DNA from: Crambe crambe
Lineage: Eukaryota > Porifera > Demospongiae > Poecilosclerida > Crambeidae
Direction: 5' to 3'
Assembly (NCBI GenBank): GCA_963924555.1
Contig: OZ004582.1
Location: 7,502,001-7,566,000 of the forward strand
Length of the DNA stretch: 64,000 bases
Shown: positions 1-44,618 of the stretch, piece after piece
Numbering within the stretch: the stretch's first letter is position 1
How the letters are laid out: each line of letters begins with the position of its first letter
Translations under genes and position numbers: made by a program
The notes under the pieces: generated by a model
Told to the model about the DNA's origin: nothing
Seen by the model: only the letters and a program-made list of their open reading frames with translations
The model's database searches: none

Positions 1-47
1 TATAATCTCTAGCAATCTAAATGGGATATCGATGTCATTTGATACAG

Positions 48-219
48 ATTTCAAAGAAGGGGATACTTTTCCCTGAAGGTGTTGATGCCAACCCCCTTGA
101 CTATCCTCCCATGATCACCGTCTCTGGAGAGAAGACCTCGTCTACGAGTGTTGGTCCACCAAAACTACTTGTGATTGGACTGGACAAAGAGTGCAGCTTC
201 AACCTTATCTCTATACCAG
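48..219 (+). CDS. R1 exon: UPA-like segment before the GTPase
   Basis: Exon of 172 nt with acceptor GATACAG and donor GTGAGG; begins in phase 0 and ends in phase 1. It encodes about 57 residues with a central ITVSGEKTSS and a final ECSFNLISIPG. In ankyrins, UNC5 and PIDD a UPA domain follows ZU5, and this position and beta-rich composition suggest the same, but I see no diagnostic motif. The same exon recurs in R2, R4 and R5 at high identity. Confidence 0.6.
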
Positions 220-3200
220 GTGAGGCATAATGACAACCAACCATGATTTAAACCATAGAAGTCTAGTTGGAAGCCATAGTCTAAAGCTACAGTGGATTGC
301 AACATGAAATTCAGAACACCAAACCAAAAATTTACATAGCCTCCATTCAAAGGGCTTATCATGGCTTTAGAGTAAAAGGAAGCTATGTAAATTTGGTTTG
401 GTGTTCTAAATTTGATGTTGCCAGATCACTGCAATCCACTCTACTGTCGATTTCAGGATGGTTGTCCATAAGGAATGAGAAATAGGTAATTACAATCTGG
501 ACTGTGTGCTAAGATAACTATTTTAATTTGTACAGATGATCTTGATGATGAAGCAGGCATGAAAGAGTTCATGGAAGGAGTTCAAAAGGCCATCGCTAAA
601 AGTGGAAAGATTGATCGAAAATTAGCGCATTCCATGTTCGTTGGTCCCACAGGTTCGGGGAAGAGTTCATTGATGGATCGCTTGCTTGGCAGACAAAGAA
701 AGAAGTTTTCTGCTTCAACTGGTGTGTGTGACACAGTCGTCATCGTAGACATTACTGTCACCAACCCTTCCACTTTCCACCCGGTTACGATACTGGATGG
801 TGACACTTGGGAAGAAATAGAATGTGATGTGTCGTATGTGAGACAGCTGGGGCAGGAGAGTGCGAATGTCGAAAATCCTCCTGAGAATCCTCCTCCTAAG
901 CCCACTGAAAAGAGAGCCCACACACGTGCTTCCGCACGACCTGATCCTGCAAGGAAGGTAGGTTCAGTTCGTCACTCCAAAAAGAAGGATGCACCTGTGC
1001 CTCTTCCAAAACGAAAGCTAAAATTCGGTGGTACGATTATTTCCTCTAAAAATATAAATTCAGTCATCAAGAAGTACGGCTTTGGTACAGTAAAAAAGTA
1101 CCTGAAGAAAACCTGTTCGCTGTATCTCAGGGACACCGGAGGTCAGGTGGAGTTCCAGGAAATGTTACCTCTCTTGATCTTTGGCCCGTCCATTTTCTTC
1201 TTCGTTTTTCGACTCAACCTTGACTTCAAGAGCAAGTTACGTGTTGAGTACAGGATGAGTGCTAACAAGTCGATAAATTGCTACACCTCCTCCATCACCA
1301 CTGAAGAAGCCTTACTCCAGTGTCTTACTAGTGTGTCTGCCATGGACACATCAGAGGAAGACGGTGTCAAGACACACAAGCCCATGGTCTTCATTGTTGG
1401 CACTCACAAGGATAGGCTCGGTTCTGAAGCCGAAGGCATCATCAAGATAAATCACTTGAATCAACATCTAGATTCCATCATACAGAGCAATGGCTTTCGA
1501 GATCTAGTCCAGTATGCTGGTAATGATCACAACGTTATGTTTGCAGTGGACAACACTTCCGATAGCGAAGAAGATTTCCAGAAGATTCGATCAAAAGTTA
1601 ATCACCTTATCAATGTCCGTAAGTGGTTCAGTATTGAATACCCTATGAGCTACCTCTTGTTCTGCCTCGACCTCCAAAATATGAAGCAGAGTATCTTGAC
1701 CCTGGACGAATGCAAAGACCTTGCAGCCCAACATGGTATTGAAGAGGACCAGGTGTCCCACCTCTTGCGTTTCCTCCACATCAGAATTGGTGTTATTCGA
1801 TACTTTGACATAGAAGGCTTGAAGCACATCGTAGTCAAAGAGCCCCAAGTTCTCTTCGATATGATCACCGACCTCCTTGTGAAAACCTTTTGGTGTGAGT
1901 CTGTTACAACAAAGGAGGCATTTGACTTCAAGAAGAAAGGCATTTTGGCCGCATCTGCCTTTGAAGATGTGGCTAGTAGTGACTATAAAATAAGTCCCAA
2001 AGAATTTCTTCAACTTTTGATTCATCTCCGCATCATCACCCCATTCACTACATCTGAAGACCAGGAAGAGAGGTACTTCATACCTTGTGTCCTAAACCAA
2101 GTCCCTGAATTTCCTGATGAAGATTCGGTAACAGATATTCTACCACTGTTATTCAAGTTCAAGAGTGACCATTGTCCAAAGGGTATCTTTGGTGTCCTAT
2201 CCACTCACCTCATGACCCCAGAAAAGGCTGAAAGCAAAGAAGTTGGTACGACATTTGTTCTAATCCATGACAAAATCTTTAAAGATCAGGTGTCCTTTGA
2301 GGTCCACTCCCCTTGGGAGGAGCAAGACGAGATGTCCTTGAAAGTCTACTCTACCCACTTACAAGTGAAATTCTTTCCCTTTTCATCCGATGACGATCGC
2401 GATACTCCCCTAAAAGAAGTGTGCAATAACGTGCGTCAGATCCTGGAGAAGTCAATCCTCAGATCCTTGAAGGACCTCCATTACAGCAAACAGAAGCTCG
2501 AGCCCATGGCATGCTTCAAGTGTGAACATTGTACTCAAATGCATCCTGTGAAAGCAGGAAGAACTCATCACAAGATACACTGTAACAAAGCTCGTGAAAG
2601 AAGTCGCATCCCAGTCAATGGAAGATGCTGGTACAATGAAGGTCAGTCCATTTAACCATAGGAAACAGTATGTTGACCTTATTACACTGCACATGTTCAG
2701 AAATGCTAACACATTATCATTGTAAACTTGTAGACTGTGAGCCTCCCATGACCACATCAGTCTCTCCCCTGCCACGTTCTCCACCACAACCAACTCCACA
2801 TAGGAATCCTCCTTCTGACCCTGCTGCAGGGAACAACAGAGCAAGGACTGAAGAGATTGGAATCAGATACAGAGCGAGTAAGCATACTCCTATCAGATAT
2901 CATTCCTTTGGTTGTAGCCTACGTGCCTGTAGCAACTGAGGAAAGTAGAGGAGTCCTTCTGTGGACAAATCCTTACTGATAGTGTTACACATAATTGTAA
3001 TCTCTCCTTAGGTTGCTATGAGTTTCTTAAAACCCAAGAAAATTCCCACCCACAAACATGTGGATCAATGGAACATAGAATGTACTAATTCTTTCCATGT
3101 TACTCCTTCGACGAACTCTTTCATGCCTGCTTCATCCTGAACCCACCCCACATGAAAGAGTTCATCAAGGGAGTTGAAAAGGCCATAAATAGAAAAATTA

Positions 3201-4072
3201 GTGCATTCCACGTTGGTCCCACGGGTTCAGGGACAGATCCCATCTTGTTCTCATAGTACTATGGTTGTCCATTTTCTCCAGTTGTTGACTATCCATCGTA
3301 CGTATCCTCCCTCCCTGCCTGTGCTCATCCCCTCCTGGAGCGACGATTGGACTGGGACCATAAGGGAGTGGACCGAGACCTGAACACCATTGCAGATCAC
3401 ATGCTGGACTGGGAGAAGAAGCTTTCCACTCCTCTGAAACTGACTACAACTGAAATACATGATGTCAAATTTTTGCACTCTGACCCTGTTCTCCTGAGGT
3501 AAGATAGAGGCAGCTGCTGAGCAAGGAATTTGCAAAAAAAAAATCTTTCCCCATGCAATTTCCCACTGCATGGAAGTTGAATTCATGCTAGGCCTCCACC
3601 GATTATTCTATTCTCTTATTCCTCAAATTTTTACTCTCTTTGTCCATTATTCATGCCAGCATAGCTACACATGCAAGACTATTACTGATAAAGACATAAT
3701 CCTGAAGTGAGAGTTCTCGTGAAAATGAAATTATCCAATAAGGAAAAGCTGGAACAGCAAGAGTAAAATGCAGTTGTACAATTTGCAATGAGGAACAGGA
3801 AGAAGTGTTCAGCTCATTAATATTGACTTTGCTTTTTAGCTCATTAAAATGTGCTAGCATATTTTATTGAGGCCTAATTCATGCATGGGACTTAATTATT
3901 TGTGTGCAGGAGAGCAGTGTTGAGGAAGTGGAAGGAGAAGGAAGGTCTGCGTGCCACCTATGGGAACCTGTTGAGGGTGTGTTGTGAGGGAGGAGACACA
4001 AGTACTGCTCAAGTCATCTGTGACACACTGAGGGAGAAGACAAAGGAGGAGGGTAAGTATTCAACCACTTGA
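48..4072 (+). CDS. R1: 3' part of ANK-ZU5-Roc-COR-Death gene (5' end outside window)
   Basis: First unit of the tandem array; its ankyrin and ZU5 exons lie left of the window. Exons by splice signals and phase: 48-219, 536-2641, 2734-2877, 3282-3498, 3910-4052. All junctions agree in phase (1, 1, 1, 2, then 1). If the last donor is not used, translation runs seven codons into the intron and stops at 4070-4072. A possible further exon at 4553-4765 lacks the AG acceptor that the other copies have (TCTG in place of TCAG). The protein is probably a cytoplasmic signalling scaffold of the ROCO type ending in a Death domain; that role is inferred from domain families only. Every visible exon is open, so the gene could be functional. 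Confidence 0.75.
290..441. repeat. Intronic inverted repeat (MITE-like hairpin) in R1
   Basis: The arm starting CAGTGGATTGCA...AACACCAAACC...TTTACATAGCC is repeated in reverse complement (GCTATGTAAATTTGG...AATCCACT) within the intron before the GTPase exon. It recurs at the same intron position in R4 (31,454-31,605) and R5 (about 46,394-46,545) and in degraded form in R2, so it was present before the array expanded. It has no coding content; a short non-autonomous DNA transposon is the likely origin. Confidence 0.65.
536..2641 (+). CDS. R1 exon: Roc-like GTPase plus COR domain
   Basis: Single 2,106-nt exon, acceptor TTTGTACAG, donor GTCAGT. Counting from the ATG at 559, the P-loop GPTGSGKSS is at residues 29-37, the G3 motif DTGGQ near residue 193 and the G4 motif THKD near 281: the G1/G3/G4 set of a Ras-of-complex (Roc) GTPase. 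A basic, proline-rich stretch of about 60 residues lies between the G1 half and G3. The remainder (about 330-600, containing RIGVIRYFDIEGLKHIVV) matches the winged-helix part of a COR domain, the dimerisation partner of Roc. The end has a CFKCEHC...HHKIHC cluster that may bind zinc. About 700 residues in all. As an alternative reading the GTPase could be a divergent DAPK1-type Roc. Confidence 0.85.
2734..2877 (+). CDS. R1 exon: proline/serine-rich linker
   Basis: 144-nt exon in phase 1-1, acceptor TTGTAG, donor GTAAGC. It encodes a low-complexity linker rich in Pro and Ser (CEPPMTTSVSPLPRSPPQ...) joining COR to the Death domain. R2 and R4 have close homologues of 120 and 147 nt; length differs by whole codons. 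Confidence 0.65.
3066..3235. repeat. Intronic palindrome made of two copies of the unit's own P-loop region (R1)
   Basis: The left arm (3066-3136) is the reverse complement of the start of the GTPase exon: GATGAAGCAGGCATGAAAG read on the minus strand. The right arm (3151-3235) is a sense copy running from ATGAAAGAGTTCATCAAGG to the GGTTCAGGGA that corresponds to the P-loop codons. It lies in the intron between the linker exon and the Death domain exon. The same arrangement is seen in R2 (13,541-13,750) and R4 (34,368-34,556), and flipped in R3. Confidence 0.75.
3282..4052 (+). CDS. R1 exons: type B Death domain (3282-3498 and 3910-4052)
   Basis: Two exons of 217 and 143 nt joined in phase 2 with a 411-bp intron. 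Together they encode about 120 residues with a Death-fold pattern: RRLDWDHKGVDRDLNTIADHM, then the charged IHDVKFLHSDP turn, then RAVLRKWKEKEGLRATYGNL and a final helix. The W-x-x-K pattern and leucine spacing are typical of the C-terminal half of Death domains, which form homotypic complexes. Assignment is from pattern and from the ZU5/Roc context; no structure search was possible. Confidence 0.65.
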
Positions 4073-6547: not shown

Positions 6548-6608
6548 GCTAGCCTCGTACCCAGGCCCACTTTTTTCGCGGGGCGGTGGGCCTGGGTACG
6601 AGGCTAGC
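6548..6608. repeat. Perfect short hairpin, GCTAGCCTCGTACCCAGGCC type
   Basis: GCTAGCCTCGTACCCAGGCC, a short TTTTTTCGCGGGGC-containing loop, and the reverse complement GGCCTGGGTACGAGGCTAGC. Present at each unit boundary that retains its flank (also 26,917-26,976 and 41,958-42,021). A ~60-bp foldback element; no coding content. Confidence 0.7.
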
Positions 6609-6878
6609 GTGGAGCGTGCAAATGAGGTACAAGGCTAGTGTGGAGCGTGCAAATGAGTGTGCAAATTCTGTTCTAAATTTTATAAAAAATAATAGGAGAT
6701 GATCAACAGGACATCAACAATTGAATTCTTTGCTTTTACTTTGTATTCATAAGGACATAAAACTTGATTATGATGCAGTAATAGGTTTGTATGCTTCCAG
6801 ATATCCCTAGGAGAATGTCACTCAATCCCTAGGAGAATGTCACTCATTTGCCCTCTGCAACATCTGCTATTATATAGA

Positions 6879-7113: not shown

Positions 7114-8845
7114 ATGGCTGACTCCCAGGCCCTACACAGAGCTGTCCGGTCACAACGTGTGGACGAGGTCAGGAAACTCTTGCAAAGTGGCGAGTGTCAT
7201 GTAAACGCCACTGATTCCCGACTATCGACTCCCTTGCATCGTGCTTGCGCTCAAGGTAACGTCAGTCTAGTTGAGGTATTCATTCGTGAGTACAATGCTG
7301 ATGTTAATGCTCGTGATCATCAAAATAGCACACCACTCAGTGTAGCTGCTGCTGCGGGGAAAGAAGAAGTTGCATTGCTTTTAATCAAAGAGTTTGGTTG
7401 TGACCCCAACATCAAGGGTTATCTTGGTAGATCCCTGCTACATGATGCATGTCAAGGAGGTAGTGTCGGTCTAGTTCGGACTTTGATCCTTCAACACAAT
7501 GCTGATGTTAATGCTCGTGATGATCGAAATACCACACCACTCAGTGTAGCTGCTTTTGCGGGGAAAGAAGAAGTTGCATTGCTTTTAATCAAAGAGTTTG
7601 GTTGTGACCCCAACATCAAGGGTAATCTTGGTAGATCCCTGCTACATGATGCATGTCAAGGAGGTAGTGTCGGTCTAGTTCGGACTTTGATCCTTCAACA
7701 CAATGCTGATGTTAATGCTCGTGATGATCAAAATAGCACACCACTCAGTGTAGCTGCTGCTGTAGGGAAAGAAGAAGTTGCATTGCTTTTAATCAAAGAG
7801 TTTGGTTGTGACCCCAACATCAAGGGTTATCTTGGTAGATCACTGCTACATGATGCATGTCAAGGAGGTAGTGTCGGTCTAGTTCGGACTTTGATCCTTC
7901 AACACAATGCTGATGTTAATGCTCGTGATCATCAAAATGGCACACCACTCCATTTAGCTGCTGCTTGTGGGAAAGAAGAAGTTGCATTGCTTTTAATCAA
8001 AGAGTTTGGTTGTGACCCCAACATCAAGGATTATCTTGGTAGTTCCCTGCTACATTCTGCATGTGAAGGAGGTAGTGTCGGTCTAGTTCGGACTTTGATC
8101 CTTCAACACAATGCTGATGTTAATGCTCGTGATGATCAAAATAGCACACCACTCAGTATAGCTGCTACTGCAGGGAAAGAAGAAGTTGCATTGCTTTTAA
8201 TCAAAGAGTTTGGTTGTGACCCCAACATCAAGGGTTATCTTGGTAGATCCCTGCTACATGATGCATGTCAAGGAGGTAGTGTCGGTCTAGTTCGGACTTT
8301 GATCCTTCAACACAATGCTGATGTTAATGCTCGTGATGATCGAAATACCACACCACTCAGTGTAGCTGCTTTTGCGGGGAAAGAAGAAGTTGCATTGCTT
8401 TTAATCAAAGAGTTTGGTTGTGACCCCAACATCAAGGGTAATCTTGGTAGATCCCTGCTACATGATGCATGTCAAGGAGGTAGTGTCGGTCTAGTTCGGA
8501 CTTTGATCCTTCAACACAATGCTGATGTTAATGCTCGTGATGATCAAAATAGCACACCATTCCGTTTAGCTGCTACTTTGGGGAAAAAAGAAGTTGCATT
8601 GCTTTTAATAGAAGAGTTTGGTTGTGACCCCAACATCAAGGGTTATCTTGGTAGATCCCTGCTACATCATGCATGTCAAGGAGGTAGTGTCGGTCTAGTT
8701 CGGACTTTGATCCTTCAACACAATGCTGATGTTAATGCTCGTGATGATAGCAATCGCACACCGCTTGATTTGGCAATTGTACATGAAAAGAAGGATGTTG
8801 CATCCATTTTAATTAATGAATTTGGTTCCAACAAAGACACTGGAG
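7114..8845 (+). CDS. R2 exon: ankyrin-repeat array, seven 68-residue double units
   Basis: One exon of 1,732 nt. After an N-terminal pair (ALHRAV...ECHVNATDS) come seven units of 204 nt starting near 7357, 7561, 7765, 7969, 8173, 8377 and 8581. Each encodes two ankyrin repeats (GKEEVALLLIKEFGCDPNIK plus a second of type GRSLLHDACQGGSVGLVRT), about 17 repeats in total. A final degenerate repeat (EKKDVASILINEFG) caps it. The block around 7400-7650 is repeated almost exactly 816 bp later, i.e. four units away. Two possible donors six bases apart (after 8845 or 8851) keep the same phase. Ankyrin arrays bind proteins or peptides; the ligand is unknown. Confidence 0.9.
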
Positions 8846-11800
8846 GTAAATGTAAGTTAAGTCAAGTAATGGACACTTGTATGATACTCATTATCTGTAG
8901 CTCTTCCTTTGGCCGACTCACTCCATGTTGAAATGACCTCCCCTGATGTCACGTTCCATGGAGATCCGAAAGTAACTACTATCAGCACCTCTTCAGTCAC
9001 AATAAACATGAGCGATGTAGGCATCTCTCTCTCCATACCTGAAGGAGCACTGGATCCAGTAGAAAGTCAACTGAAATTGTCAGTTCGACCCTGTTTGACT
9101 GGACCGTTTGAGCTACCTCCAGACTATGAAGCAGTTAGTCCAGCCTACCTGATACAGCCCAGAGGGAATGGGAAATTGCGAAAAGATGTGAGAGTGCGTA
9201 TCCAACACTGTGCTAGTCTTCAGCGTGAGGAGGACTGTGAGGACATGGCATTTCTGTCGGCTAGCTCCACCCCAGAGTACACGGGGCCCAGTCTGGTTTA
9301 TCCCTTTAGAGAAGTCAAAGAAGCTAAGGGAATCTTCAAAGTGGGAGACCAGGAGGGAGAAATAGCTCTCAAATCTCTCCGATTATTGCGAGTGGCTAAG
9401 AGAGTCGGGACATCATCAATAGGTAAGAATTAAGAACCAATTTTCATTGTGATATCTATCCATTCCTATATTAAATTAAACAGAAAGTCTCTTGTGTACT
9501 GTGAGGCTGCTCAGGACTGTTGAAGAAGACGCTTTTTTCAAAGCGACATTTGTAGCCCACTTGGATCATCCCGTCTACTCAAAGGTGAGATATTTTCATT
9601 ATCAGTTGGTGTGTATTCCAATGCTGTGTTCTTGCAGCACTGTGAGAGAGCCATAGCTGGTCTGCATCCAGGTGGATCAAATAAGGGAGAAGCAGAGAGT
9701 GCCGTGATTACTGCAAGGATGGTGTCTGTAGATATGATCCTCAAAACTGAGAATTCTGCAGAATGGGATGTAAAATTCAATACAGTGAATCAGGTTAGCA
9801 TGATGATCTGTATTTTTAACCCTCCGCACATGCATGAGAAGGTTACAGTAGTCATTTTTTAATTGTGTGTGGCAAATTCTTAACCTTTGAGACAGATATT
9901 AACACAAGTAGGCTCTAACTCTTTCAGATGTTTCAGCTTCAAAACAGCCAGCTTCTACTGTGATGTTCCAAATAATGCACACCCACATTCATAATTAATT
10001 GCCGTCCTACCCCTTGAATAGTGCATGTATGGTGCCTCACCCCTTTCACCTCTGGTTGAATGAAGCTTAGGACATAATAATATGGTAGCATATGCACAAA
10101 ATATCAGGGTTTATTTCAAGGGGGTGAGGGGAGCTTCTGCCCCCCAGGCCTGAACGATGGCTTGCCCCCTCCTTGAACTGCAGTGCAGAGGGTTTGCACT
10201 TTAGTGCTTTATAATCTCTAGCAATCTAAATAGGATATCGATGTCATTTGATACAGATTTCAAACAAGGGAATACTTTTCCCTGAAGGTATTTATGCCAA
10301 CCCCCTTGACTATCCTCCCATGATCACCGTCTCTGGAGAGAAAACCTCGTCTATGAGTGCTGGTCCACCAAAACTACTTGTGATTGGACTGGACAGAGAG
10401 TGCAGCTTCAACCTTATCTCTATACCAGGTGAGGCATAATGACAACCAACCATGATTTAAACCATAGAGGTCTAGTTGGAAGCCATAGTCTAAAGCTACA
10501 GTGGATTGCAACATGAAATTCAGAACACCAAACCAAAAATTTACATAGCCTCCATTCAAAGGGCTTATCATGGCTTTAGAGTAATGTAAATTTGGTTTGG
10601 TGTTCTTTGCCAGATTGCTGCAGTTCCCAGTACTGTAGATTTCATGATGGTTATCCATAAGGAATGAGAAATAGGTAGTTACAATCTGGACCATGTGTTA
10701 AGTTAACTATTTTAATTGTGCAGGTGATCTTGATGATGAAGCAGGCATGAAAGAGTTCATGGAAGGAGTTCAAAAGGCCATCGCTAAAAGTGGAAAGATT
10801 GATCGAAAATTAGCGCATTCCATGTTCGTTGGTCCCACAGGTTCGGGGAAGAGTTCATTGATGGATCGCTTGCTTGGCAGACAAAGAAAGAAGTTTTCTG
10901 CTTCCACTGGTGTGTGTGACACAGTCGTCATCATAGACATTAACCCTTCCACTTTCCACCCGGTTACGATACTGGATGGTGACATTTGGGAAGCAATAGA
11001 ATGTGATGTGTCGTATGTGAGACAGCTGGGGCAGGAGAGTGTGAATGTCGAAAATCCTCCTGAGAATCCTCTTACTAAGCCCACAGAAAAGAGAGTCCAC
11101 ACACGTGCTTCTGCACGACCTGATCCTGCGATGAAGGTAGGTTCAGTTCGAGTTGCAAAACCACACTCCAAAAGGAAGGATGCACCAGCATCTCTCTCAA
11201 AACAAAAGCTAAAAGTTGGTACGATTATTTCCTCTGAAAATATAAATTCAGTCATCAAGAAGTACGGCTTTCGTAAGGTTAAAAAGTACCTGAAAAAAAC
11301 CTGTTCCCTGTATCTCAGGGACACCGGAGGTCAGGTGGAGTTCCAGGAAATATTACCTCTCTTGATCTTTGGCCCGTCCATTTTCTTCTTCGTTTTTCGA
11401 CTCGACCTCGATTTCGAGAGCAAGTTATGTGTTGAGTACAGGATGAGTGCTAACAAGTCGATAAATTGCTACACCTCCTCCATCACCACTGAAGAAGCCT
11501 TACTCCAGTGTCTTGCTAGTGTGTATGCCATGGACACATCAGAGGAAGACAGTGTCAAGACACACAAGCCCATGGTCTTCATCATTGGCACTCACAAGGA
11601 TAGGCTCGGTTCTGAAGCTGAAGGCATCATCAAGATAAATCGTTTGAATCGACATCTGGATTTCATCATACGGAGAAATGGCTTTCGAGATCTAGTCCAG
11701 TATGCTGGTGATGATCACAACGTCATGTTTGCAGTGGACAACACTTCCGATAGTGAAGAAGACTTCCAGAAGATTCGATCAAATGTTAACCGCCTTATCA

Positions 11801-14666
11801 ACACTCTTAAAGAGTTCAGCATCGAGTACCCAATCAGCTACCTCTTGTTCTGCCTTGACCTCCAAAATATGAAACAGAGTATACTGACCCTGGACGAATG
11901 CAAAGACCTTGCAGCCAAACATGGCATCGAAGGGGACCAGGTATCTCACCTCTTGTGTTTCCTCCACATCAGAATTGGTGTCATTCGATACTTCAACATA
12001 GAAGGCCTCAAGCACATCATCGTTAAAGAGCCTCAAGTTCTCTTCGACAAGATTACCAATCTCCTTATGAAGACCTTTTCTGGTGAGTTCCTTAGAACAA
12101 GTGTGGTGCTTGATTTCAGAGAGAAGGGTATTCTCACAGCATCAGCCTTTGAAAATGTGTTGAATAGTGACGATAAGATCAAACCTAGTGAGTTTCTTCA
12201 ACTTCTTGTTCATCTGCGCATCGTCACTCCTCTTGTTACACCTGGAGACAAAGAAGACCAGGAAAAGAGGTACTTCATTCCGTGTGTCCTAAACCATGTC
12301 CCAGAATCTCCTGATGAAGATTCGATACCTGATATCCTACCACTGTTATTCAAGTTCAAGAGTGACCATTGCCCAAAGGGTATCTTTGGAGTCTTGACCA
12401 CTCACCTCATGACCCCAGAAAAGGCTGAAAGTGAAGAAGTTGGTACGACATTCGTTCTAATCCATGACAAAATCTTTAAAGATCAGGTGTCCTTTGAGGT
12501 CCACTCCCCTTGGGAGGAGCAAGACGAGATGTCCTTGAAAGTCTATTCTACCCACTTAGAAGTGAAATTCTTTCCCTTATCGTCCGATGATGATCGCGAT
12601 ACTCCCCTGAAAGAAGTGTGCAATAACGTGCGTCAGATCCTGGAGAAGTCAATCCTCAGATCCTTGAAGGACCTCCATTACAGCAAAGAGAAGCTCAATC
12701 CCATGGCATGCTTCAAGTGTGAACATTGTACTCAAATGCATCCAGTAAAGGCAGGAAGAACTCATCACAAGATACACTGTATCAAAGCTCGTGAAAGAAG
12801 TCGCATCCCACTCAATGGAAGATGCTGGTACAATGAAGGTCAGTCCATTTAAGCATAGATCCCCTTGTGTAGGAAACAATATATTGACCTTATTACACTT
12901 GGATGTGTAACACGACCCTGTGCAAGTCAGGCTTACTTATCTAGCCTTGCATGTCCAAGTCACAACTGTTATCCTGTAACCCATAATTTCAAACCACTGA
13001 AAGATAAAATCCCAATATGGTACTTTACTAACCCATTACCATAGCAATCAACCATTGCACATGCTCAGAAGTGTTAACACATTATCATTGTGCAGGTTGG
13101 TTGACCAGTAGAATTTGCACATGTGCAAGATAAATTCAAGCGAGCACAATATACTGTCATATAAATGCAATGATCTTAAATTTTGCGAGCACGAATTTAA
13201 TTCTGCACAGTCGGCAAATTTTGTGTCAACCAACCTGAAAACCCCTGTAAACTTTGTTGTAGACTGTGAGCCTCCCACAACCACATCAGTCTCATCTCCC
13301 CTGCCACGTTCTCCAAGGAATCCTCCTTCTGACCCTGCTGCAGGAAACAACAGAGCAGAGATTGGAATCAGACACAGAACAAGTAAGCATACTCCTGTAT
13401 AAGTCACAGCTGTTATCCTGTAATTTATAATTTCAAACCACTGAAAGCAATATGGCACTTTACTACCATAGCAATCAACCTGTTGACAAATCCTTACTGA
13501 TAGTGTTAGATAATTGCAAAAAACTCCCACCCACAAACATGTGGACCAACGGAACATAGAACGTACTAATTCTTTCCATGTTTAGCGAGAACTCCTTTGA
13601 TGAACTCTTTCATGCCCGCTTCATCCCAAACCCGCCCTACATGAAAGAGTTCATCAAGGGAGTTGAAAAGGCCATCACTAAGAAATAGAATGATTGATAG
13701 AAAATTAGTGCATTCCATGTTCGTTGGTCCACGGGTTCAGGGGCAGATCCCATTGTACTATAGTTGTCTGTCCATTTTCTCCAGTTGTTGACTATTCATC
13801 GTACATATCCTCCCTCCCTACCTGTGCTCATCCCCTCCTGGAGCAACGGTTGGACTGGGACCATAAGGGAGTGGACCAAGACCTGAACACTATAGCAGAT
13901 CACATGCTGGACTGGGAGAAGAAGCTTTCCACTCCTCTGAAACTGACTACCATTGAAATACACGATGTCAAATTTTTGCACTCTGACCCTGTTCTCCTGA
14001 GGTAAGATAGAGGCAGCTGCTGAGCAAGGAATTTTAGTGAATGCGAGTCATTATTTTCATTATCAATTCCCTTTTAAAAATATTTTTTGATCACAAAAAT
14101 CCACAAAAATTTCCCCCACTGCATGGAAGTTGAATTCGTGCAAATAATATATGCTTCCCCCCCCCCCCCCCCCCACTGATTATTCTATTCTCTTCTTCCT
14201 CAAAATTTACTCTCTAGCTTTGTCCATTATTCATGCCAGCATAGCTACACATACAGGACTATTACATAATCCCAAAGTGAGAATTCTCGTGAAATGATAA
14301 GGAAAAGATGGAGCAGCAAGAGTAAAAATGCAGTCGTGCAATTCGCAATGAGGAACAGGAAGAAGTGTTTAGCTCATTAATATTGACTTTGCTTTCAGCT
14401 TTCTCTCCTATCTAAGTACCTATTATTAAAAGGTGCTAGCATATTTATTGAGGCCTAATTCATGCATGGGACTTGGTGATTTCTTTTTATTATTTGTGTG
14501 CAGGAGAGCAGTGTTGAGGAAGTGGAAGGAGAAGGAAGGTCTGCGTGCCACCTACGGGAACCTGTTGAGGGCGTGTTGTGAGGGAGGAGACACAAGTACT
14601 GCTCAAGTCATCTGTGACACACTGAGGGAGAAGACAAAGGAGGAGGGTAAGTATTCAACCACTTGA
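7114..14666 (+). CDS. R2: ANK-ZU5-(UPA-like)-Roc-COR-Death gene, complete
   Basis: Exons 7114-8845, 8901-9422, 9484-9584, 9638-9793, 10,257-10,428, 10,724-12,838, 13,263-13,382, 13,785-14,001 and 14,504-14,646 join in one frame of about 1,759 codons, with a stop at 14,664-14,666 if the last donor is read through. The start is MADS at 7114 because this Met is conserved in all copies; the same frame is open further up to 6976. The ankyrin-ZU5-UPA-Death order recalls ankyrins, UNC5 and PIDD, while Roc-COR-Death recalls DAPK1; the combination suggests an intracellular ligand-sensing adaptor controlled by GTP binding. Weak point: the acceptor of the ZU5 exon is mutated relative to R4 and R5. Confidence 0.75.
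8901..9422 (+). CDS. R2 exon: ZU5 domain
   Basis: Encodes about 170 residues. VGISLSIPEGALDPVESQL followed by VRPCLTGPFELPPDYEAVSP and a YLIQPRGNGKLRKDVRVRIQ strand is the typical ZU5 core (hydrophobic strand, IPEGAL, SP-x-Y-x-x-x-P). ZU5 domains pack against UPA and Death domains in UNC5 and PIDD. In R4 and R5 the acceptor is CTTTTAG|CC; R2 has CTTTGGCC, so it must use the TCTGTAG 12 bp upstream, adding four in-frame residues, or fail to splice. Confidence 0.85.
9484..9793 (+). CDS. R2 exons: two small post-ZU5 exons (9484-9584, 9638-9793)
   Basis: Exons of 101 and 156 nt separated by a 53-bp intron, read as 34 and 52 codons. They encode LLRTVEEDAFFKATFVAHLD and then HCERAIAGLHPGGSNKGEAE...WDVKFNTVNQ. 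Together with the next exon they occupy the place of a UPA domain. I do not recognise a named motif. They are near-identical in R4 and R5, with lengths conserved exactly. Confidence 0.65.
10257..10428 (+). CDS. R2 exon: UPA-like segment
   Basis: 172-nt exon, same boundaries as in R1, R4 and R5. The preceding 463-bp intron carries a truncated copy of the CAGGGTTTATTTCAAGGGGG element that is complete in R4 and R5. One residue change, from Asp to Tyr, relative to its sisters near the start (GIYANPLDYPP). Confidence 0.6.
10724..12838 (+). CDS. R2 exon: Roc-like GTPase plus COR domain
   Basis: 2,115-nt exon, open throughout. P-loop GPTGSGKSS, DTGGQVEFQEI and GTHKD are intact. Compared with R1 it lacks the TVT of DITVTNP (DINP here) and carries a longer basic insert (RVAKPHSKRKD). 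The COR half is more like R3 and R5 than R1 and R4 (for example TPLVTPGDKEDQEKRYFIP), which points to two sub-lineages or gene conversion within the array. The donor GTCAGT is shared by all copies. Confidence 0.85.
13263..14646 (+). CDS. R2 exons: linker (13,263-13,382) and type B Death domain (13,785-14,001; 14,504-14,646)
   Basis: The linker is 120 nt, shorter than in R4 by loss of the PQPTPH stretch. The Death domain exons are open: VDYSSYISSLPTCAHPLLEQ then RLDWDHKGVDQDLNTIADHM, and RAVLRKWKEKEGLRATYGNL. One base change, from Thr to Ile, occurs in the IEIHDVK turn. The intron between linker and Death domain contains the P-loop palindrome. Confidence 0.65.
13541..13750. repeat. Intronic palindrome of the unit's own P-loop region (R2)
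   Basis: The antisense arm 13,541-13,627 and the sense arm 13,640-13,750 are both homologous to the first ~110 bp of the GTPase exon at 10,733-10,850. The antisense arm read in reverse gives GGCATGAAAGAGTTCATCAA and ends at the CGTTGGTCC before the P-loop codons. Confidence 0.75.
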
Positions 14667-17603: not shown

Positions 17604-19803
17604 ATGGCTGACTCCCTGGCCCTACACAGAGCTGTCCAGTCACAACATGTGGACGAGGTCAGGAAACTCTTGCAAAGTGGCGAGTGTCATGTAAATTCCA
17701 CTGATTCCCAACTATGGACTCCCTTGCATCATGCTTGCGCTCAAGGTAACGTCAGTCTAGTTGAGGTATTGATTCGTGAGTACAATGCTGATGTTAATGC
17801 TCGTGATGATCAAAATAGCACACCACTCAGGGCTAAGGCAGACAAAGAAAGAAGTTTTCTGCTTCAACTGGTGTGTGTGACACAGTCGTCATCGTAGACA
17901 TTACTGTCACCAACCCTTCCACTTTCCACCCGGTTACGATACTGGAGGGTGACACTTGGGAAGCAATAGAATGTGACGTGTCGTATGTGACAGCTGGGGC
18001 AGGAGAGTGTGAATGTCGAAAATCCTCCTGAGAATCCTCTTACTAAGCCCACAGAAAAGAGAGTCCACACACGTGCTTCTGCACGACCTGATCCTGCGAG
18101 GAAGGTAGGTTCAGTTCGAGTGGCAAAACCACGCTCCAAAAGGAAGGATGCACCAGCATCTTTCCCAAAACGAAAGCTAAAAGTCAGTACGATTATTTCC
18201 TCTGAAAATATAAATTCAGTCATCAAGAAGTATGGCTTTCGTAAGGTTAAAAAGTACCTGAAGAAAACCTGTTCCCTGTATCTCAGGGACACCGGAGGTC
18301 AGGTGGAGTTCCAGGAAATGTTACCTCTCTTAATCTTTGGCCCGTCCATTTTCTTCTTTGTTCTTCGACTCGACCTCGACTTCAAGGGCAAGTTATGTGT
18401 CGAGTACAGGATGAGTGCTAACAAGTCGATAAATTGCTACACCTCCTCCATCACCACTGAAGAAGCCTTACTCCAGTGTCTTACTAGTGTGTGTGCCATG
18501 GACACATCAGAGGAATACGGTGTCAAGACACACAAGCCCATGGTCTTCATCGTTGGCACTCACAAGGATAGGCTCGGTTCTGAAGCCGAAGGCATCATCA
18601 AGATAAATCACTTGAATCGACATCTGGATTTCATCATACGGAGCAATGGCTTTCGAGATCTAGTCCAGTATGCTGGTGATGATCACAACGTTATGTTTGC
18701 AGTGGACAACACTTCCGATAGCGAAGAAGACTTCCAGAAGATTCGATCAAATGTCAACCACCTTATCAACACTCGTAAAGAGTTCAGCATCGAGTACCCG
18801 ATCAGCTACCTCTTGTTCTGCCTCGACCTCCAAAATATGAAACAGAGTATCTTGACCCTGGACGAATGCAAAGACCTTGCAGCCAAACATGGTATTGAAG
18901 AGGACCAGGTGTCCCACCTATTGCGTTTCCTCCACATCAGAATTGGTGTTGTTCGATACTTTGACATAAAAGGCTTGAAGCACATCATTGTCAAAGAGCC
19001 CCAAGTTCTCTTTGATAAGATCACCGATCTCCTTGTGAAAACCTTTTCTGGTGAGTTCCTTAGAACAGGTGAGGTGCTTGATTTCAGAAAGAAGGGTATT
19101 CTCACAGCATCAGCCTTTGAAAATGTGGTGAGTAGTGACGATGAAATCAAGCCCAATGAGTTTCTTCAACTTCTTGTTCATCTCCGCATCGTCACTCCTT
19201 TTGTCACACCTGGAGACAAAGAAGACCAGGAAAAGAGGTACTTCATTCCGTGTGTCCTAAACCATGTCCCAGAGTCCAAAGGAGACACAGTGAGCAATAT
19301 TCTACCACTTTTATTCAAGTTCAAGAGTGACCATTGCCCTAAGGGTATCTTTGGTGTCTTATCCACTCACCTCATGACCCCAGAGAAGGCTGAAAGCGAA
19401 GAAGTTGGTACGACATTCACTCTAATCCATGACAAAATCTTTAAAGATCAGTTGTCCTTTGAGGTCCACTCCCCTTGGGAGGAGCAAGACGAGATGTCCT
19501 TGAAAGTCTACTCTACCCACTTAGAAGTGAAATTCTTTCCCTTTTCGTCCGATGATGATCGCGATACTCCCCTGAAAGAAGTGTGCAATAACGTGCGTCA
19601 GATCCTGGAGAAGTCAATCCTCAGATCCTTGAAGGACCTCCATTACAGCAAAGAGAAGCTCGAGCCCATGGCATGCTTCAAGTGTGAAAATTGTACTCAA
19701 CTGCATCCAGTAAAGGCAGGAAGAACTCACCACAAGATACACTGTAGCAAAGCTCGTGAAAGAAGTCGCATCCCACTCAATGGAAGATGCTGGTACAATG
19801 AAG
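17604..19803 (+). pseudogene. R3: ANK-to-Roc deletion fusion, GTPase-dead pseudogene
   Basis: The ankyrin exon starts normally (ATG 17,601 or 17,604) but breaks at about 17,829, in the second repeat. After a few filler bases (GGCTAA) it joins the GTPase exon at GCAGACAAAGAAAG, about 30 bp after the P-loop codons. The rest of the ankyrin array, ZU5, the UPA-like exons and the P-loop are gone. The fusion is out of frame (stop at 17,895-17,897), and a further 2-bp deletion (TATGTGACAGC against TATGTGAGACAGC, near 17,990) follows. From 18,009 on, the G3, G4 and COR parts are open to the usual donor after 19,803. Confidence 0.85.
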
Positions 19804-20010
19804 GTCAGTCCATTTTTAAACATAGATCCCCGTGTGGGAAACAGTATATTAACCTTATTACACTTGGATGTGTATTGCCTAGGCTTTCTTCTCTGGCCTT
19901 GCATGCATAGCCCTTACTGAGTGCAAATGGGCTTTTATTTACCATCAGAATCATTTTAGGGAACTGTATGTAGTTCATCATTAATACATTGCTATTATAA
20001 TATTATGCAG

Positions 20011-26916: not shown

Positions 26917-26976
26917 GCTAGCCTCGTACCCAGGCCCGCTTTTTTCGCGGGGCAATGGGCCTGGGTACGAGGCTAG
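26917..26976. repeat. Short hairpin, GCTAGCCTCGTACCCAGGCC type
   Basis: Same foldback as at 6548, arms 20 bp, loop GCTTTTTTCGCGGGGCAAT. Confidence 0.7.
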
Positions 26977-27192
26977 TGTGGAGCATGCAAATGAGGTACG
27001 AGGCTAGTGTGGAGCGTGCAAATTCTGTTCTAAATTTTATAAAAAATAATACGAGATCATCAACAGGATCAACGATTGAATTCTTTGTATTCATAAGGAC
27101 ATAAAACTTGATTATGATGCAGTAATAGGTTTGTATGATCCCTAGGAGAATGTCACTCATTTGCCCTCTCTAACATCTACCCTTTACATAGA

Positions 27193-27317: not shown

Positions 27318-29664
27318 ATGATGGCTGACTCCCTGGCCCTACACAGAGCTGTCTGTTCACAACATGTGGACGAGGTCAGGAAACTCTTGCAGAGTGGCGA
27401 GTGTCATGTAAACGCCACTGATTCCCGACTATGGACTCTCTTGCATCATGCTTGCGCTCAAGGTAACGTCAGTCTAGTTGAGGTATTGATTCGTGAGTAC
27501 AATGCTGATGTTAATGCTCGTGATCATCAAAATAGCACACCACTCAGTGTAGCTGCTTGTACGGGGAAAGAAGAAGTTGCATTGCTTTTAATCAAAGAGT
27601 TTGGTTGTGACCCCAACATCAAGGGTTATCTTGGTAGATCCCTGCTACATGATGCATGTGGAGGAGGTAGTGTCGGTCTAGTTCGGACTTTGATCCTTCA
27701 ACACAATGCTGATGTTAATGCTTGTGATGATCAAAATACCACACCACTCAGTGTAGCTGCTGCTTTTGGGAAAGAAGAAGTTGCATTGCTTTTAATCAAA
27801 GAGTTTGGTTGTGACCCCAACATCAAGGGTTATTTTGGTAGATCCCTGATACATCATGCATGTCAAGGAGGTAGTGTCGGTCTAGTTCAGACTTTGATCC
27901 TTCAACACAATGCTGATGTTAATGCTCGTGATGATCAAAATACCACACCACTCAGTGTAGCTGCTGCTTTTGGGAAAGAAGAAGTTGCATTGCTTTTAAT
28001 CAAAGAGTTTGGTTGTGACCCCAACATCAAGGGTTATCTTGGTAGATCCCTGCTACATCATGCATGTATTAGTGGTAGTGTCAGTCTAGTTCGGACTTTG
28101 ATCCTTGACCACAATGCTGATGTTAATGCTCTTGGTGATGATAATGACACACCACTCCATTTAGCTGCTGCTGAAGGGAAAGAAGAAGTTGCATTGCTTT
28201 TAATCAAAGAGTTTGGTTGTGACCCCAACATCAAGGGTTATCGTGGTAGATCCCTGCTACATCATGCATGTCAAGGAGGTAGTGTCGGTCTAGTTCGGAC
28301 TTTGATCCTTCAACACAATGCTGATGTTAATGCTCGTGATGATCAAAATACCACACCACTCAGTGTAGCTGCTGCTGAGGGGAAAGAAGAAGTTGCATTG
28401 CTTTTAATCAAAGAGTTTGGTTGTGACCCCAACATCAAGGGTTATCTTGGTAGATCCCTGCTACATGATGCATGTGAAGGAGGTAGTGTCGGTCTAGTTC
28501 GGACTTTGATCCTTCAACACAATGCTGTTGTTAATGCTCGTGATGATCTAAATAGCACACCACTCAGTGTAGCTGCTATTGCGGGGAAAGAAGAAGTTGC
28601 ATTGCTTTTAATCAAAGAGTTTGGTTGTGACCCCAACATCAAGGGTTATCTTGGTAGTTCCCTGCTACATTATGCATGTCAAGGAGGTAGTGTCGGTCTA
28701 GTTCGGACTTTGATCCTTCAACACAATGCTGATGTTAATGCTCGTGATGATCAAAATAGCACACCACTCAGTGTAGCTGCTGGTTTTGGGAAAAAAGAAG
28801 TTGCATTGCTTTTAATCAAAGAGTTTGGTTGTGACCCCAACATCAAAGGTCGTCTTGGTAGATCCCTGCTACATCATGCATGTGAAGGAGGTAGTGTCGG
28901 TCTAGTTTGGACTTTGATCCTTCAACACAATGCTGTTGTTAATGCTCGTGATGATCAAAATACCACACCACTCAGTGTAGCTGCTGCTGCAGGGAAAGAA
29001 GAAGTTGCATTGCTTTTAATCAAAGAGTTTGGTCGTGACCCCAACATAAAAGGTCGTCTTGGTAGATCCCTGCTACATTCTGCATGTCAAGGAGGTAGTG
29101 TCGGTCTAGTTCGGACTTTGATCCTTCAACACAATGTTGATGTTAATGCTCGTGATGATCAAAATAGCACACCACTCAGTGTAGCTGCTGCTTTTGGGAA
29201 AGAAGAAGTTGCATTTCTTTTAATCAAAGAGTTTGGTTGTGACCCCAACATCAAGGGTTATCTTGGTAGATCCCTGCTACATCATGCATGTCAAGGAGGT
29301 AGTGTCGGTCTAGTTCGGACTTTGATCCTTGAACACAATGCTGATGTTAATGCTCGTGATGATCGAAATAGCACACCACTCAGTGTAGCTGCTTATTTTG
29401 GGAAAGAAGAAGTTGCATTTCTTTTAATCAAAGAGTTTGGTTGTGACCCCAACATCAAGGGTTATCTTGGTAGATCCCTGCTACATGATGCATGTCAAAA
29501 AGGTAGTGTCGGTCTAGTTCGGACTTTGATCCTTCAACACAATGCTGACGTTAATGCTCGTGATGATAGCAATCACACACCGCTTGATTTGGCAACTAGT
29601 CATGGGAAGAAGGAAGTTGCATCCATTTTAATTAATGAATTTGGTTCCAACAAAGACACTGAAG
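27318..29664 (+). CDS. R4 exon: ankyrin-repeat array, ten 68-residue double units
   Basis: 2,347-nt exon with ten full 204-nt units plus N-cap and C-cap repeats, about 23 ankyrin repeats. The framework GKEEVALLLIKEFGCDPNIK is nearly invariant, while the residues after DD, before TPL, after VAA, after KG and after LLH vary from unit to unit. One unit is more divergent (ISGSVSLVRTLILDHNADVN, ALGDDNDTPLHLAAAEG). Confidence 0.9.
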
Positions 29665-32600
29665 GTAAATGTAAGTTAAGTCAAGTAATGGACACTTGTA
29701 TGATACTCATTATCTGTAACTCTTCTTTTAGCCGACTCACTCCATGTTGAAATGACCTCCCCTGATGTGAGGTTCCATGGAGATCCGAAAGTAACTACCA
29801 TCAGCACCTCTTCAGTCACAATAGACATGAGCGATGTAGGCATCTCTTTCTCCATACCTGAAGAAGCACTGGATCCAGTAGAAAGTCAATTGAAATTGTC
29901 GGTTCGACCCTGTTTGACTGGACCGTTTGAGCTACCCCCAGACTATGAAGCAGTTAGTCCAGCCTACCTGATACAGCCCAGAGGAAATGGGAAATTGCGA
30001 AAAGATGTGAGAGTGCGTATCCGACACTGTGCTAGTCTTCAGAGTGAGGAGGACTGTGAGGACCTGGCATTTCTGTCGGCTAGTTCCACCCCAGAGTACA
30101 GGGGGCCCAGTCCGGTTTATCCCTTTAGAGAAGTTGAAGAAGCTAAGGGAATCTTCAAAGTGGGAGACCAGGTTGGAGAAATAGCTCTCAAATCTCTCCA
30201 ATTATTGCGAGTGGCTAAGAGAGTCGGGACGTCATCAATAGGTAGGAAGAGCCTTTCATTGTGATATCTATCCATTCCTATATTAAATTAAACAGAAAGT
30301 CTCTTGTGTATTGTGAGGCTGCTCAGGACTGTTGAAGAAGATGCTTTTTTCAGAGCAACATTTGTAGCCCACTTGGATCATCCCGTCTACTCAAAGGTGA
30401 GATATTTTCGTTATCAGTTGGTGTGTATTCCAATGCCGTGTTCTTGCAGCACTGTGAGAGAGCCATAGCTGGTCTGCATCCAGGTGGATCAAATAAGGGG
30501 GAAGCAGAGAGTGCCGTGATCACTGCAAGGATGGTGTCTGAAGATATGATCCTCAAAACTGAGAATTCTACAGAATGGGATGTGAAATTCAACACAGTGA
30601 ATCAGGTTAGCATGATGTCTGTATTTTAACCCTCCACACATGCATGAGAAGGTTACAGTAGTCATTTCTTAATTGTTTGTGTGGCAAATTTTTAATTTTT
30701 GAGACAGATATTAACACAAGTAGGCCCTAACTCTTTCAGATGTTTCAGCTTCAAGCAGCCATCTTATACTGTGATGTTCCAAATAATGCACACCCACATT
30801 CATAATTAATTGCCATCCTACCCCTTGAATAGTGTATGTATGGTGCCTCACCCCTTTCATCTCGGGTCGAATTAAGCTTAGAACATAATATAGTAGCACA
30901 TGCACAAAACATCAGGGTTTATTTCAAGGGGGTGAGGGGAGCTTCTGTCCCCCAGGCCTGAACGATGGCTTGCCCCCCTAGGAATTAGCTAGCTTTTTGT
31001 AATGAGATAATCATAGAATTCCACATACATACAGTTGCCCCTCCTTGAATGTTTTCACTAGCCCCCCCCCCCCCCCCCCCCCCCCTTGAAAATTATAAAT
31101 TAAACCCTGCACATTATAATAATGTTCTCTGCATGTACTGTACTGCAACGTGGAGGGTTTGCACTTTAGTGCTTTATAATCTCTAGAAATCTAAATCGGA
31201 TATTGATACAGATTTCAAAGAAGGGAATACTTTTCCCTGAAGGTATTGATGCCAACCCCCTTGACTATCCTCCCATGATCACCGTCTCTGGAGAGAAGAC
31301 CTCGTCTATGAGTGCTGGTCCACCAAAACTACTTGTGATTGGACTGGACAGAGAGTGCAGCTTCAACCTTATCTCTATACCAGGTGAGGCATAATGACAA
31401 CCAACCATGATTTAAACCATAGAGGTCTAGTTGGAAGCCATAGTCTAAAGCTACAGTGGATTGCAACATGAAATTCAGAACACCAAACCAAAAATTTACA
31501 TAGCCTCCATTCAAAGGGCTTATCATGGCTTTAGAGTAAAAGGAAGCTATGTAAATTTGGTTTGGTGTTCTAAATTTTATGTTGCCAGATCACTGCAATC
31601 CACTGTGTTGGATGGGTTGTCCATAAGGAATTAGAAATAGGTAGTTACAGTCTGGACCATGTGCTAAGATAACTATTTTAATTTGTACAGATGATCTTGA
31701 CGATGAAGCAGGCATGAAAGAGTTCATGGAAGGAGTTCAAAAGGCCATCGCTAAAAGTGGAAAGATTGATCGAAAATTAGCGCATTCTATGTTCGTTGGT
31801 CCCACAGGTTCGGGGAAGAGTTCATTGATGGATCGCTTGCTTGGCAGACAAAGAAAGAAGTTTTCTGCTTCCACTGGTGTGTGTGACACCGTCGTCATCA
31901 TAGACATTACTGTCACCAACCCTTCCACTTTCCACCCGGTTACGATACTGGATGGTGACACTTGGGAAGCAATAGAATGTGATGTGTCGTTTGTGAGACA
32001 ACTGGGGCAGGAGAGTGTGAATGTTGAAAATCCTCCTGAGAATCCTCTTCCTAAGCCCACCAAAAAGAGAGTCCACAAACGTGCTTCTGCACGACCTGAT
32101 TCTGCGCGGAAGGTAGGCTCAGTTCGAGTTGCAAAACCACGCTCCAAAAGGAAGGATGCACCAGCATCTTTCCCGAAACGAAAGCTAAAAGTTGGTACGA
32201 TTATTTCCTCTGAAAATATAAATTCAGTCATCAAGAAATACGGGTTTCGTACAGTAAAAAAGTACCTGAAGAAAACCTGTTCCCTGTATCTCAGGGACAC
32301 TGGAGGTCAGGTGGAGTTCCAGGAAATGTTACCTCTCTTGATCTTTGGCCCGTCCATTTTCTTCTTCGTTTTTCGACTCGACCTCAACTTCAAAAGCAAG
32401 TTATGTGTCAAGTACAGGATGAGTGCTAACAAGTCGACAAATTGCTACACCTCCTCCATCACCACTGAAGAAGCCTTACTCCAGTGTCTTACTAGTGTGT
32501 ATGCCATGGACACATCAGAGGAAGACGGTGTCAAGACACACAAGCCCATGGTCTTCATCGTTGGCACTCACAAGGATAGGCTCGGTTCTGAAGCCGAAGG

Positions 32601-43513: not shown

Positions 43514-44618
43514 ATGATGGCTGACTCCCTGGCCCTACACAGAGCTGTCCAGTCACGACGTGTGGACGAGGTCAGGAAACTCTTGCAGAGTGGCGAGTGT
43601 CATGTAAACTCCACTGATTCCCGACTATGGACTCCCTTGCATCATGCTTGCGCTCAAGGTAACGTCAGTCTAGTTGAGGTATTGATTCGTGAGTACAATG
43701 CTGATGTTAATGCTCGTAATGATCAAAATAGCACACCACTCAGTGTAGCTGCTTTTTCGGGGAAAGAAGAAGTTGCATTGCTTTTAATCAAAGAGTTTGG
43801 TTGTGACCTCAACATCAAGAATTATATTGGTAGATCCCTGCTACATAATGCATGTCGAGGAGGTAGTGTCGGTCTAGTTCGGACTTTGATCCTTGAACAC
43901 AATGCTGATGTTAATGCTCGTGATGATCAAAATAGCACACCACTCAGTGTAGCTGCTTTTGCGGGGAAAGAAGAAGTTGCATTGCTTTTAATCAAAGAGT
44001 TTGGTTGTGACCCCAACATCAAGGGTTATTTTGGTAGAGCCCTGCTACATAATGCATGTGAAGGAGGTAGTGTCGGTCTAGTTCGGACTTTGATCCTTGA
44101 ACACAATGCTGATGTTAATGCTCGTGATGATCAAAATAGCACACCACTCAGTGCAGCTGCTGCTTTGGGGAAAGAAGAAGTTGTATTGCTTTTAATCAAA
44201 GAGTTTGGTTGTGACCCCAACATCAAGGGTTATTTTGGTAGATCCCTGCTACATTATGCATGTCAAGGAGGTAGTGTCGGTCTAGTTTGGACTTTGATCC
44301 TTGGATACAATGCTGATGTTAATGCTCATGATGATAAAAATAGCACACCACTCCATGTAGCTGCTGCTTTTGGGAAAGAAGAAGTTGCATTGCTTTTAAT
44401 CAAAGAGTTTGGTTGTGACCCCAACATCAAAGGTCGTCTTGGTAGATCCCTGCTTCATTCTGCATGTAAAGGAGGTAGTGTTGGTCTAGTTCGGACTTTG
44501 ATCCTTCAACACAACGCTGATGTTAATGCTCGTGATGATAACAATCACACACCGCTTGATTTGGCAACTAAGAAGGAAGTTGCATCCATTTTAATTGGTT
44601 CCAACAAAGACACTGAAG
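43514..44618 (+). CDS. R5 exon: ankyrin-repeat array, four 68-residue double units
   Basis: 1,105 nt: N-cap pair, four full 204-nt units, and a shortened C-cap in which GSHGKKEV...INEFGSN is reduced to TKKEVASILIGSNKD by in-frame deletions. About 11 ankyrin repeats. Variable residues again sit after KG, LLH, DD and VAA. Confidence 0.9.

Follow-up and report, generated by a model that had tools for sequence, protein, structure and literature searches.

Homogenised repeats with selected surface residues have been documented in the NLRs of fungi, in the LRR-ROCO proteins of brown algae and, for the recognition of DNA, in PRDM9. In the fungal NLRs (HET-E/HET-D and Pa_3_8560), near-identical WD40, ANK or TPR repeats are proposed to evolve in concert, their hypervariable positions are under positive selection and lie, with one exception, on the concave face in ANK repeats, and repeat number varies, as described in passages of PMC4986451 and PMC12222747; a passage of the former survey places highly conserved repeats at 0.8% in metazoans. 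The brown-algal LRR-ROC-COR proteins are described in part of PMC11378527 as Roco GTPases with a rapidly diversifying repeat sensor and positively selected sites on its concave side. The zinc-finger minisatellite of PRDM9 is coding and under positive selection at ligand-contact residues (passages of PMC3890296 and PMC8925151), with a mean dN/dS of 2.7 given in an excerpt of PMC5120217. For designed ankyrin libraries, the relevant passage of PMC3308923 states that side chains at positions 2, 3, 5, 10, 13 and 14 point out on one surface and that positions 26 and 33 were held constant as not directly on that surface. Individual-specific receptor expression has been reported for the sponge Halichondria panicea (part of PMC8242945), and an actiniarian study mentions Roc/COR, in the part concerned, in one novel kinase-death-TIR gene only (PMC5094078). 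Here, we describe arrays of ankyrin repeats in a 64,000-nucleotide stretch of the sponge Crambe crambe (the window; C3:7502001-7566000 of a 143-Mb genome) and compare them with these systems.

Gene anatomy and the repeat unit

The window contains 204-bp tandem arrays at 7292-8762, 27499-29567 and 43695-44553, with matches of 93-94% (TRF); this likeness, taken at the nucleotide level over 859-2069 bp in the three arrays, lies above the threshold of >85% over at least 100 aa that applies to the highly conserved repeats of fungal-type NLRs. One 204-bp unit encodes two ankyrin repeats of 34 residues each. The interval 7357-8784, in which the sequence-only reading had recognised a coding minisatellite, is exactly 7 x 204 bp and lies within an open frame, offset by 42 bp from the repeat start at 7315-8742 that was used for unit analysis instead. 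That reading had also counted 21 double units in the arrays R2, R4 and R5, and this number was recovered (7 + 10 + 4), every unit being open. The features of the window are as follows.

559-2655, plus strand: gene 1, Roc-COR exon; the corresponding array of 8 units is found upstream, at C3:7498809-7500440, outside the window
7114-8845, plus strand: gene 2, exon 1, ankyrin array with cap repeats and 7 double units, R2 (Pfam Ank, 3.5e-109; in-phase splice model; AlphaFold helix pairs)
7315-8742, plus strand: R2, seven 204-bp double ankyrin units (TRF and unit translation)
8901-9422, plus strand: gene 2, exon 2, ZU5 (Pfam ZU5, 1e-7)
9484-9584, plus strand: gene 2, exon 3 (splice model; similar stretches by eye in the C19 paralogue and in a sponge-associated contig)
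9638-9793, plus strand: gene 2, exon 4 (splice model)
10257-10428, plus strand: gene 2, exon 5 (splice model)
10724-12852, plus strand: gene 2, exon 6, encoding a Roc-COR GTPase whose C-terminus is rich in cysteine (COR-A, at 8.3e-10, passed its cut-off; Roc, at 6.4e-5, fell short of its own)
17985-19910, plus strand: gene 3, remnant Roc-COR copy that lacks an array and is interrupted by a single in-frame TGA
27321-29664, plus strand: gene 4, exon 1, ankyrin array (splice model)
27522-29561, plus strand: R4, 10 double units within gene 4 exon 1
29732-30241, plus strand: gene 4, exon 2, ZU5 (5.4e-6)
30296-30396, 30450-30605 and 31212-31383, plus strand: gene 4, exons 3-5 (splice model)
31691-33807, plus strand: gene 4, exon 6, Roc-COR (Roc-COR match, splice model)
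43514-44618, plus strand: gene 5, exon 1, ankyrin array (splice model)
43718-44533, plus strand: R5, 4 double units within gene 5 exon 1
44686-45195, plus strand: gene 5, exon 2, ZU5 (assigned from its resemblance to genes 2 and 4; splice model)
45256-45356, 45410-45565 and 46155-46326, plus strand: gene 5, exons 3-5 (splice model)
46633-48860, plus strand: gene 5, exon 6, Roc-COR (COR-A 2.4e-10, splice model)

Under a splice model built from sequence, the six exons joined in phase in three of three window genes, with predicted spliced proteins of 1603, 1799 and 1423 residues. The predicted order of the gene product is ankyrin array, ZU5, three short exons without assignment, and Roc-COR; exons 3-5 of gene 4 gave no Pfam match. 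At exon 2 of gene 2, the acceptor of genes 4 and 5 (TTTTAG) reads TTTGG, and an AG 12 bases upstream preserves the frame. A splice model lacking exons 3-5 was replaced after distant relatives showed similar stretches there. The sequence-only reading had captured the surface diversification of the arrays and had missed that they form the N-terminus of proteins from a large gene family with ZU5 and Roc-COR.

The assignment of the C-terminal exon relied on domain searches. COR-A scored 39.2-40.9 bits against a cut-off of 35.3 in all three window proteins scanned with Pfam, and Roc scored 23.6 and 24.8 bits, under its cut-off of 27, in two of the three, the third being without that end. At E <= 0.01, the COR domain was matched in all nine copies and paralogues and the Roc domain likewise in nine of nine members. 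The best solved-structure match for the Roc region was the Roc domain of LRRK2, at an E value of 0.036 across 27 residues only, and AlphaFold gave a pLDDT of 31 on four window Roc-COR copies. With COR-A above its cut-off and Roc under it, the family is likely to belong to the Roco proteins. No NACHT or NB-ARC domain was found by Pfam in the exons scanned, and no match to a UPA or death domain came up in gene 4 (exons 2-5, E values up to 5) or in any Roc-COR exon scanned. On the N-terminal side, ankyrin repeats are followed by ZU5 as in ankyrins (Pfam, splice model), and the AlphaFold model of the R2 array consists of ankyrin helix pairs (mean pLDDT 71, pTM 0.53).

Cluster and relatives in the genome

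A DNA search with one unit returned 379 matches, and among the matches listed all but two, on C5, fell within C3:7.483-7.825 Mb. With units less than 70% identical to the first unit excluded, 163 stop-free units were extracted, 155 of them in 21 C3 arrays of 2-12 units each and 8 on C5. The cluster thus comprises 21 arrays and 155 units in about 340 kb; 154 C3 units were analysed, one having been dropped for an indel, and the C5 units were treated apart. A Roc-COR match, in some cases partial, lies 1.9-2.5 kb downstream of each of the 21 C3 arrays, and only 2 of the 23 C3 Roc-COR matches are without an array. Across the genome, at least 64 sequences match the Roc-COR exon, 44-100% alike. When 5 kb upstream of five more distant Roc-COR copies was viewed, those on C12 and C19 had 204-bp ankyrin arrays with a framework of their own, and no ankyrin array was present in the 5 kb upstream of the copies on C15 and at C5:6.02 Mb.

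Other sequences adjoin some of these copies. Upstream of the C17 paralogue (C17:1326000-1331000, positions 1-3380 of locus L060), about 15 tandem repeats of 222 bp, 89% alike and resembling ubiquitin by eye, run in one open frame, so that another homogenised repeat array adjoins the same type of GTPase. Upstream of Roc-COR in the C15 paralogue (L059, C15:2274400-2279400, reverse strand, ORF at 3859) there is an ORF that looks caspase-like by eye. Within the window, a 31-bp tandem repeat occurs at 6595-6657 and 26964-27023, within about 0.5 kb upstream of two array genes, and the same 11/31-bp repeat occurs at 52735-52901 and 59106-59229 on opposite strands, about 6 kb apart; this pair may perhaps be the inverted ends of a mobile element. 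A P-element-like transposase fragment with a TNP-like RNase H N-terminal domain (4.8e-22) lies at 62271-63470.

In a Roc-COR scan covering one genome per bacterial or archaeal species (84,980), 1 of 155 pattern matches was confirmed. This relative, whose best segment is 53% identical over query residues 2-699, is in a metagenome-assembled genome (MAG) titled Cycloclasticus symbiont of Poecilosclerida sp. M, and it has ZU5-like and linker-like stretches upstream by eye. An ankyrin search of the same MAG gave none on the Roc-COR contig and 41 matches on two other contigs, one of which, when read, had diverged repeats and no TRF array. We infer that the Roc-COR contig is host sponge DNA. Contigs L069, L077 and L074 of that bacterial MAG record look eukaryotic and are probably host sponge sequence.

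Surface and framework variation

Two sets of surface positions were used, both assigned from ankyrin binder libraries. Set A comprised positions 2, 3, 5, 13, 14 and 33, which we take to be the ligand-facing set of DARPin libraries. Set B, the library positions, comprised 2, 3, 5, 10, 13 and 14 and came from PMC3308923. Of the replacement diversity in the 21 window units, 69% fell on the library positions, which make up 12 of the 68 codons; the permutation p of about 1e-5 is the lowest value that the test can return. The pN at these positions was 0.28 against an overall pS of 0.03. The framework had been described as almost invariant, silent sites included, and indeed 32 of the 68 codons were base-identical in all 21 units and a silent variant was present in only 9 of the 56 codons outside the six library positions. 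The residues named as variable proved mainly right, with corrections: the S and N before, and the R and H after, the asparagine that precedes TPL stem from the closing cap repeats (DDSNR, DDSNH, DDNNH) and not from the 21 units; the residues at odd position 14 are A/F/L/E/V/C/T/S, with C and T present and G absent; and odd positions 9 and 10 and even positions 3 and 26 vary as well.

The same pattern held across the cluster. In the 154 C3 units, the positions randomised in designed libraries, again 12 of the 68 codons, accounted for 64% of the replacement diversity, at 0.29 per site (permutation p again about 1e-5). Replacements were not spread evenly, since the share was 0.64 at the right register and 0.31 at the next best when the set was slid along the repeat. 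The ten most variable codons were all at positions 2, 3, 5, 9, 10, 13, 14 or 26; even position 26 varies, though the passage of PMC3308923 concerned puts it outside the direct binding surface. With bootstrapping over arrays, the set A surface had a pN of 0.232 (0.203-0.252), the framework a pN of 0.026 and silent sites a diversity of 0.053 (0.033-0.076), so that replacement exceeded silent change at the surface (pN/pS 4.4, interval 3.2-6.3) and not in the framework (0.58, 0.43-0.88). The library pN was above the overall pS in all 21 arrays, and in 2 of the 21 it failed to exceed the silent diversity of the same codons. Introns 3, 4 and 5 of 11 genes differed by 0.023 (over only 53 bp), 0.053 and 0.037, respectively; the units' silent sites therefore behave much like introns. 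The Roc-COR exon, compared in 12 of the 23 C3 copies (66 pairs), is conserved, with a pN/pS of 0.28. Silent divergence in that exon (10747-12849 and paralogues) was 0.139, roughly threefold the value for the adjacent introns, and the surface excess falls to 1.7-2.1 if this value is taken as the yardstick.

Counts of variants gave results that depended on copy number. When only variants found in 10 or more units were considered, replacement and silent changes numbered 21:0 at the surface (library set plus 9 and 26) and 4:4 in the framework (Fisher p 0.003); among all variants, the counts were 95:10 and 81:28 (p 0.002). With each distinct variant counted once along shortest paths, N:S was 93:21 over 43.5:10.5 sites in the 18 surface codons and 78:28 over 112:38 sites in the framework, both near the site ratio. 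The selection signal thus comes chiefly from variants with a moderate or high copy number, and diversifying selection on the concave face was detected by the counting methods, with the shortest-path counts near neutral.

Variable sites have recombined. All four combinations were present in 213 of 231 variable-codon pairs, and r2 dropped from 0.17 for codons 1-2 apart to 0.02 for those more than 40 apart. A small residue alphabet is reshuffled into many surfaces: 135 of the 154 units have distinct sixteen-residue surfaces and all 21 ordered arrays are distinct, and unit number differs between paralogous arrays from 2 to 12 in this one genome. The 52 framework residues are themselves not uniform, occurring in 86 forms, the commonest in 34 of the 154 units. 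Silent differences were 2.1 within one array and 2.6 between arrays; units are barely closer within than between arrays, and exchange therefore seems to be cluster-wide. In three pairs of arrays with units in register, surface N, surface S, framework N and framework S changes numbered 10, 0, 3 and 2 (7588664/7683709, 5 units), 3, 1, 2 and 2 (7483450/7650659, 6 units) and 4, 0, 3 and 2 (7661995/7672939, 2 units).

Explanations and comparison with known systems

The proposal of the sequence-only reading that these are diversifying recognition arrays is supported, in one genome, by the surface pN/pS of 4.4 and by the uneven spread of replacements. On balance, the arrays probably represent ligand surfaces that are under selection and shuffled by recombination, in a family of intracellular receptors of the Roco type. 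As such, they would be the putative ligand-binding sensor of a large set of receptors built from an ankyrin array, ZU5 and a Roc-COR GTPase. The framework, silent sites included, would be kept nearly uniform by gene conversion and unequal crossing-over, acting both inside single arrays and among the 21 or so of the cluster, and the same exchange would keep altering the number and order of units. Diversifying selection would retain many different residues wherever a repeat faces the ligand, and the shuffling of a small residue alphabet would yield a repertoire of different surfaces. The Roc-COR GTPase would then be switched when the ankyrin groove binds a ligand, which is probably non-self, of microbial or allogeneic origin. 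A bolder version, which we offer tentatively, is that the family constitutes a germline repertoire of DARPin-like binders in an animal without adaptive immunity, in which the ankyrin surfaces of about 20 Roco receptors might be remodelled by unit shuffling at a pace that makes individuals or clones differ, and might serve allorecognition or the discrimination of symbionts and microbes in sponges.

It seems unlikely that relaxed constraint alone accounts for the pattern, the surface being free and the framework not, with recent amplification making silent sites look uniform and no selection for diversity. The near-neutral path counts of distinct variants would fit such a process, as would the six other ankyrin loci of the genome (8 found; L007 left out, and L005 dropped for having <5 repeats fitting the text pattern), at which the surface share of replacements is also raised, at 0.29-0.43 versus 0.18 by chance. 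However, neutral surface sites should not top silent sites of equal age, as those of the cluster do, and the excess is larger still within the same codons, replacement in library codons minus odd 14 being 0.259 against a silent diversity of 0.047. Moreover, the six other loci, with a surface pN of 0.19-0.42 and a pS of 0.15-0.59, reach ratios of only 0.7-1.7, the highest at L003. The surface pattern recurs in other arrays, as judged from units fitting a text pattern (15 on C19, versus 17.4 copies by TRF). Surface pN, framework pN and pS were 0.224, 0.003 and 0.040 on C12 (6 units; ratio 5.6), 0.216, 0.054 and 0.124 on C19 (15 units; ratio 1.7) and 0.321, 0.085 and 0.173 on C5 (8 units; ratio 1.9). 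Since the C19 and C5 ratios barely top the highest control, only C12 is clearly above the controls, and the recurrence on C19 and C5 is weaker.

Diversifying selection might also be real in proteins that act as ankyrin-like adaptors, or as players in genomic conflict, and not as sensors of immunity or allorecognition, which we consider improbable. Ankyrin repeats plus ZU5 form the core of ankyrins, the solved structures nearest by sequence to the array are ankyrin-1/2 and designed ankyrins, and Foldseek placed ankyrins and DARPins first for the R2 model, with low TM-scores (mostly 0.2-0.5). Nevertheless, Roc-COR stands in place of the death-domain tail, and the number of genomic Roc-COR matches together with unit-by-unit turnover of the surface would be unusual for a housekeeping adaptor. 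Targeted mutation of surface codons, by a diversity-generating retroelement or AID-like editing in place of selection, is very improbable: odd codon 14 does have many third-base changes and raised silent diversity, but silent diversity in the remaining library codons is close to that elsewhere in the unit (0.047 versus 0.045) and thus gives no sign of a higher mutation rate there, and the 24 most variable bases are of mixed modal kind (C 7, A 7, G 7, T 3) with all 12 substitution kinds present, hence without an adenine- or cytosine-specific signature.

If the arrays are indeed selected receptor surfaces, they bear on how early animals distinguish self, symbiont and pathogen, for they would supply candidate receptors in the form of a defined set that can be sequenced, and their natural residue alphabet would be a ready library for binding tests. 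Among the matches listed, no Ank-ZU5-ROCO family of this sort was found in the open-licence literature. Large receptor families are also a feature of the NLR/PRR repertoires of sponges and cnidarians, although the word 'roco' is absent from the text of the sponge study (PMC8242945). Ankyrins (Ank-ZU5-UPA-death) share the succession of ankyrin repeats and ZU5 and differ in UPA and death, which were not found in the exons scanned here.

By analogy, the family appears to work like the fungal NLRs, the brown-algal LRR-ROCOs and PRDM9, but it belongs to none of them, because it has no NOD domain, no LRR exons and no zinc fingers. With the fungal NLRs it shares near-identical repeats and selected hypervariable positions. 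In fungi, however, the sensor is C-terminal and accompanies a NOD domain (NACHT or NB-ARC), whereas here it is N-terminal and accompanies ZU5 and Roc-COR; variation between individuals has been shown in the fungi, whereas a single sponge genome is described here. The brown-algal proteins likewise join a Roco GTPase to a diversifying repeat sensor but, as described in part of PMC11378527, carry leucine-rich repeats on separate 72-bp exons that are shuffled and alternatively spliced, whereas the ankyrin double units lie in one exon. PRDM9 is similarly a coding minisatellite with selected ligand-contact residues, in zinc fingers that bind DNA and not in ankyrin repeats; it is mostly a single gene, compared with the cluster of about 20 here. 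Designed ankyrin libraries vary positions 2, 3, 5, 10, 13 and 14 on a fixed framework (in the passage of PMC3308923 concerned) but are engineered, whereas the sponge arrays are natural, have a two-repeat unit, vary odd position 9 and even position 26 as well, and keep position 33 nearly fixed. The novelty lies in the occurrence in an animal, in a receptor body made of ZU5 and Roc-COR, and in the cluster's size: the principle documented in fungi, brown algae and PRDM9 would operate here in an animal, at the very positions chosen for randomisation in engineered ankyrin binders.
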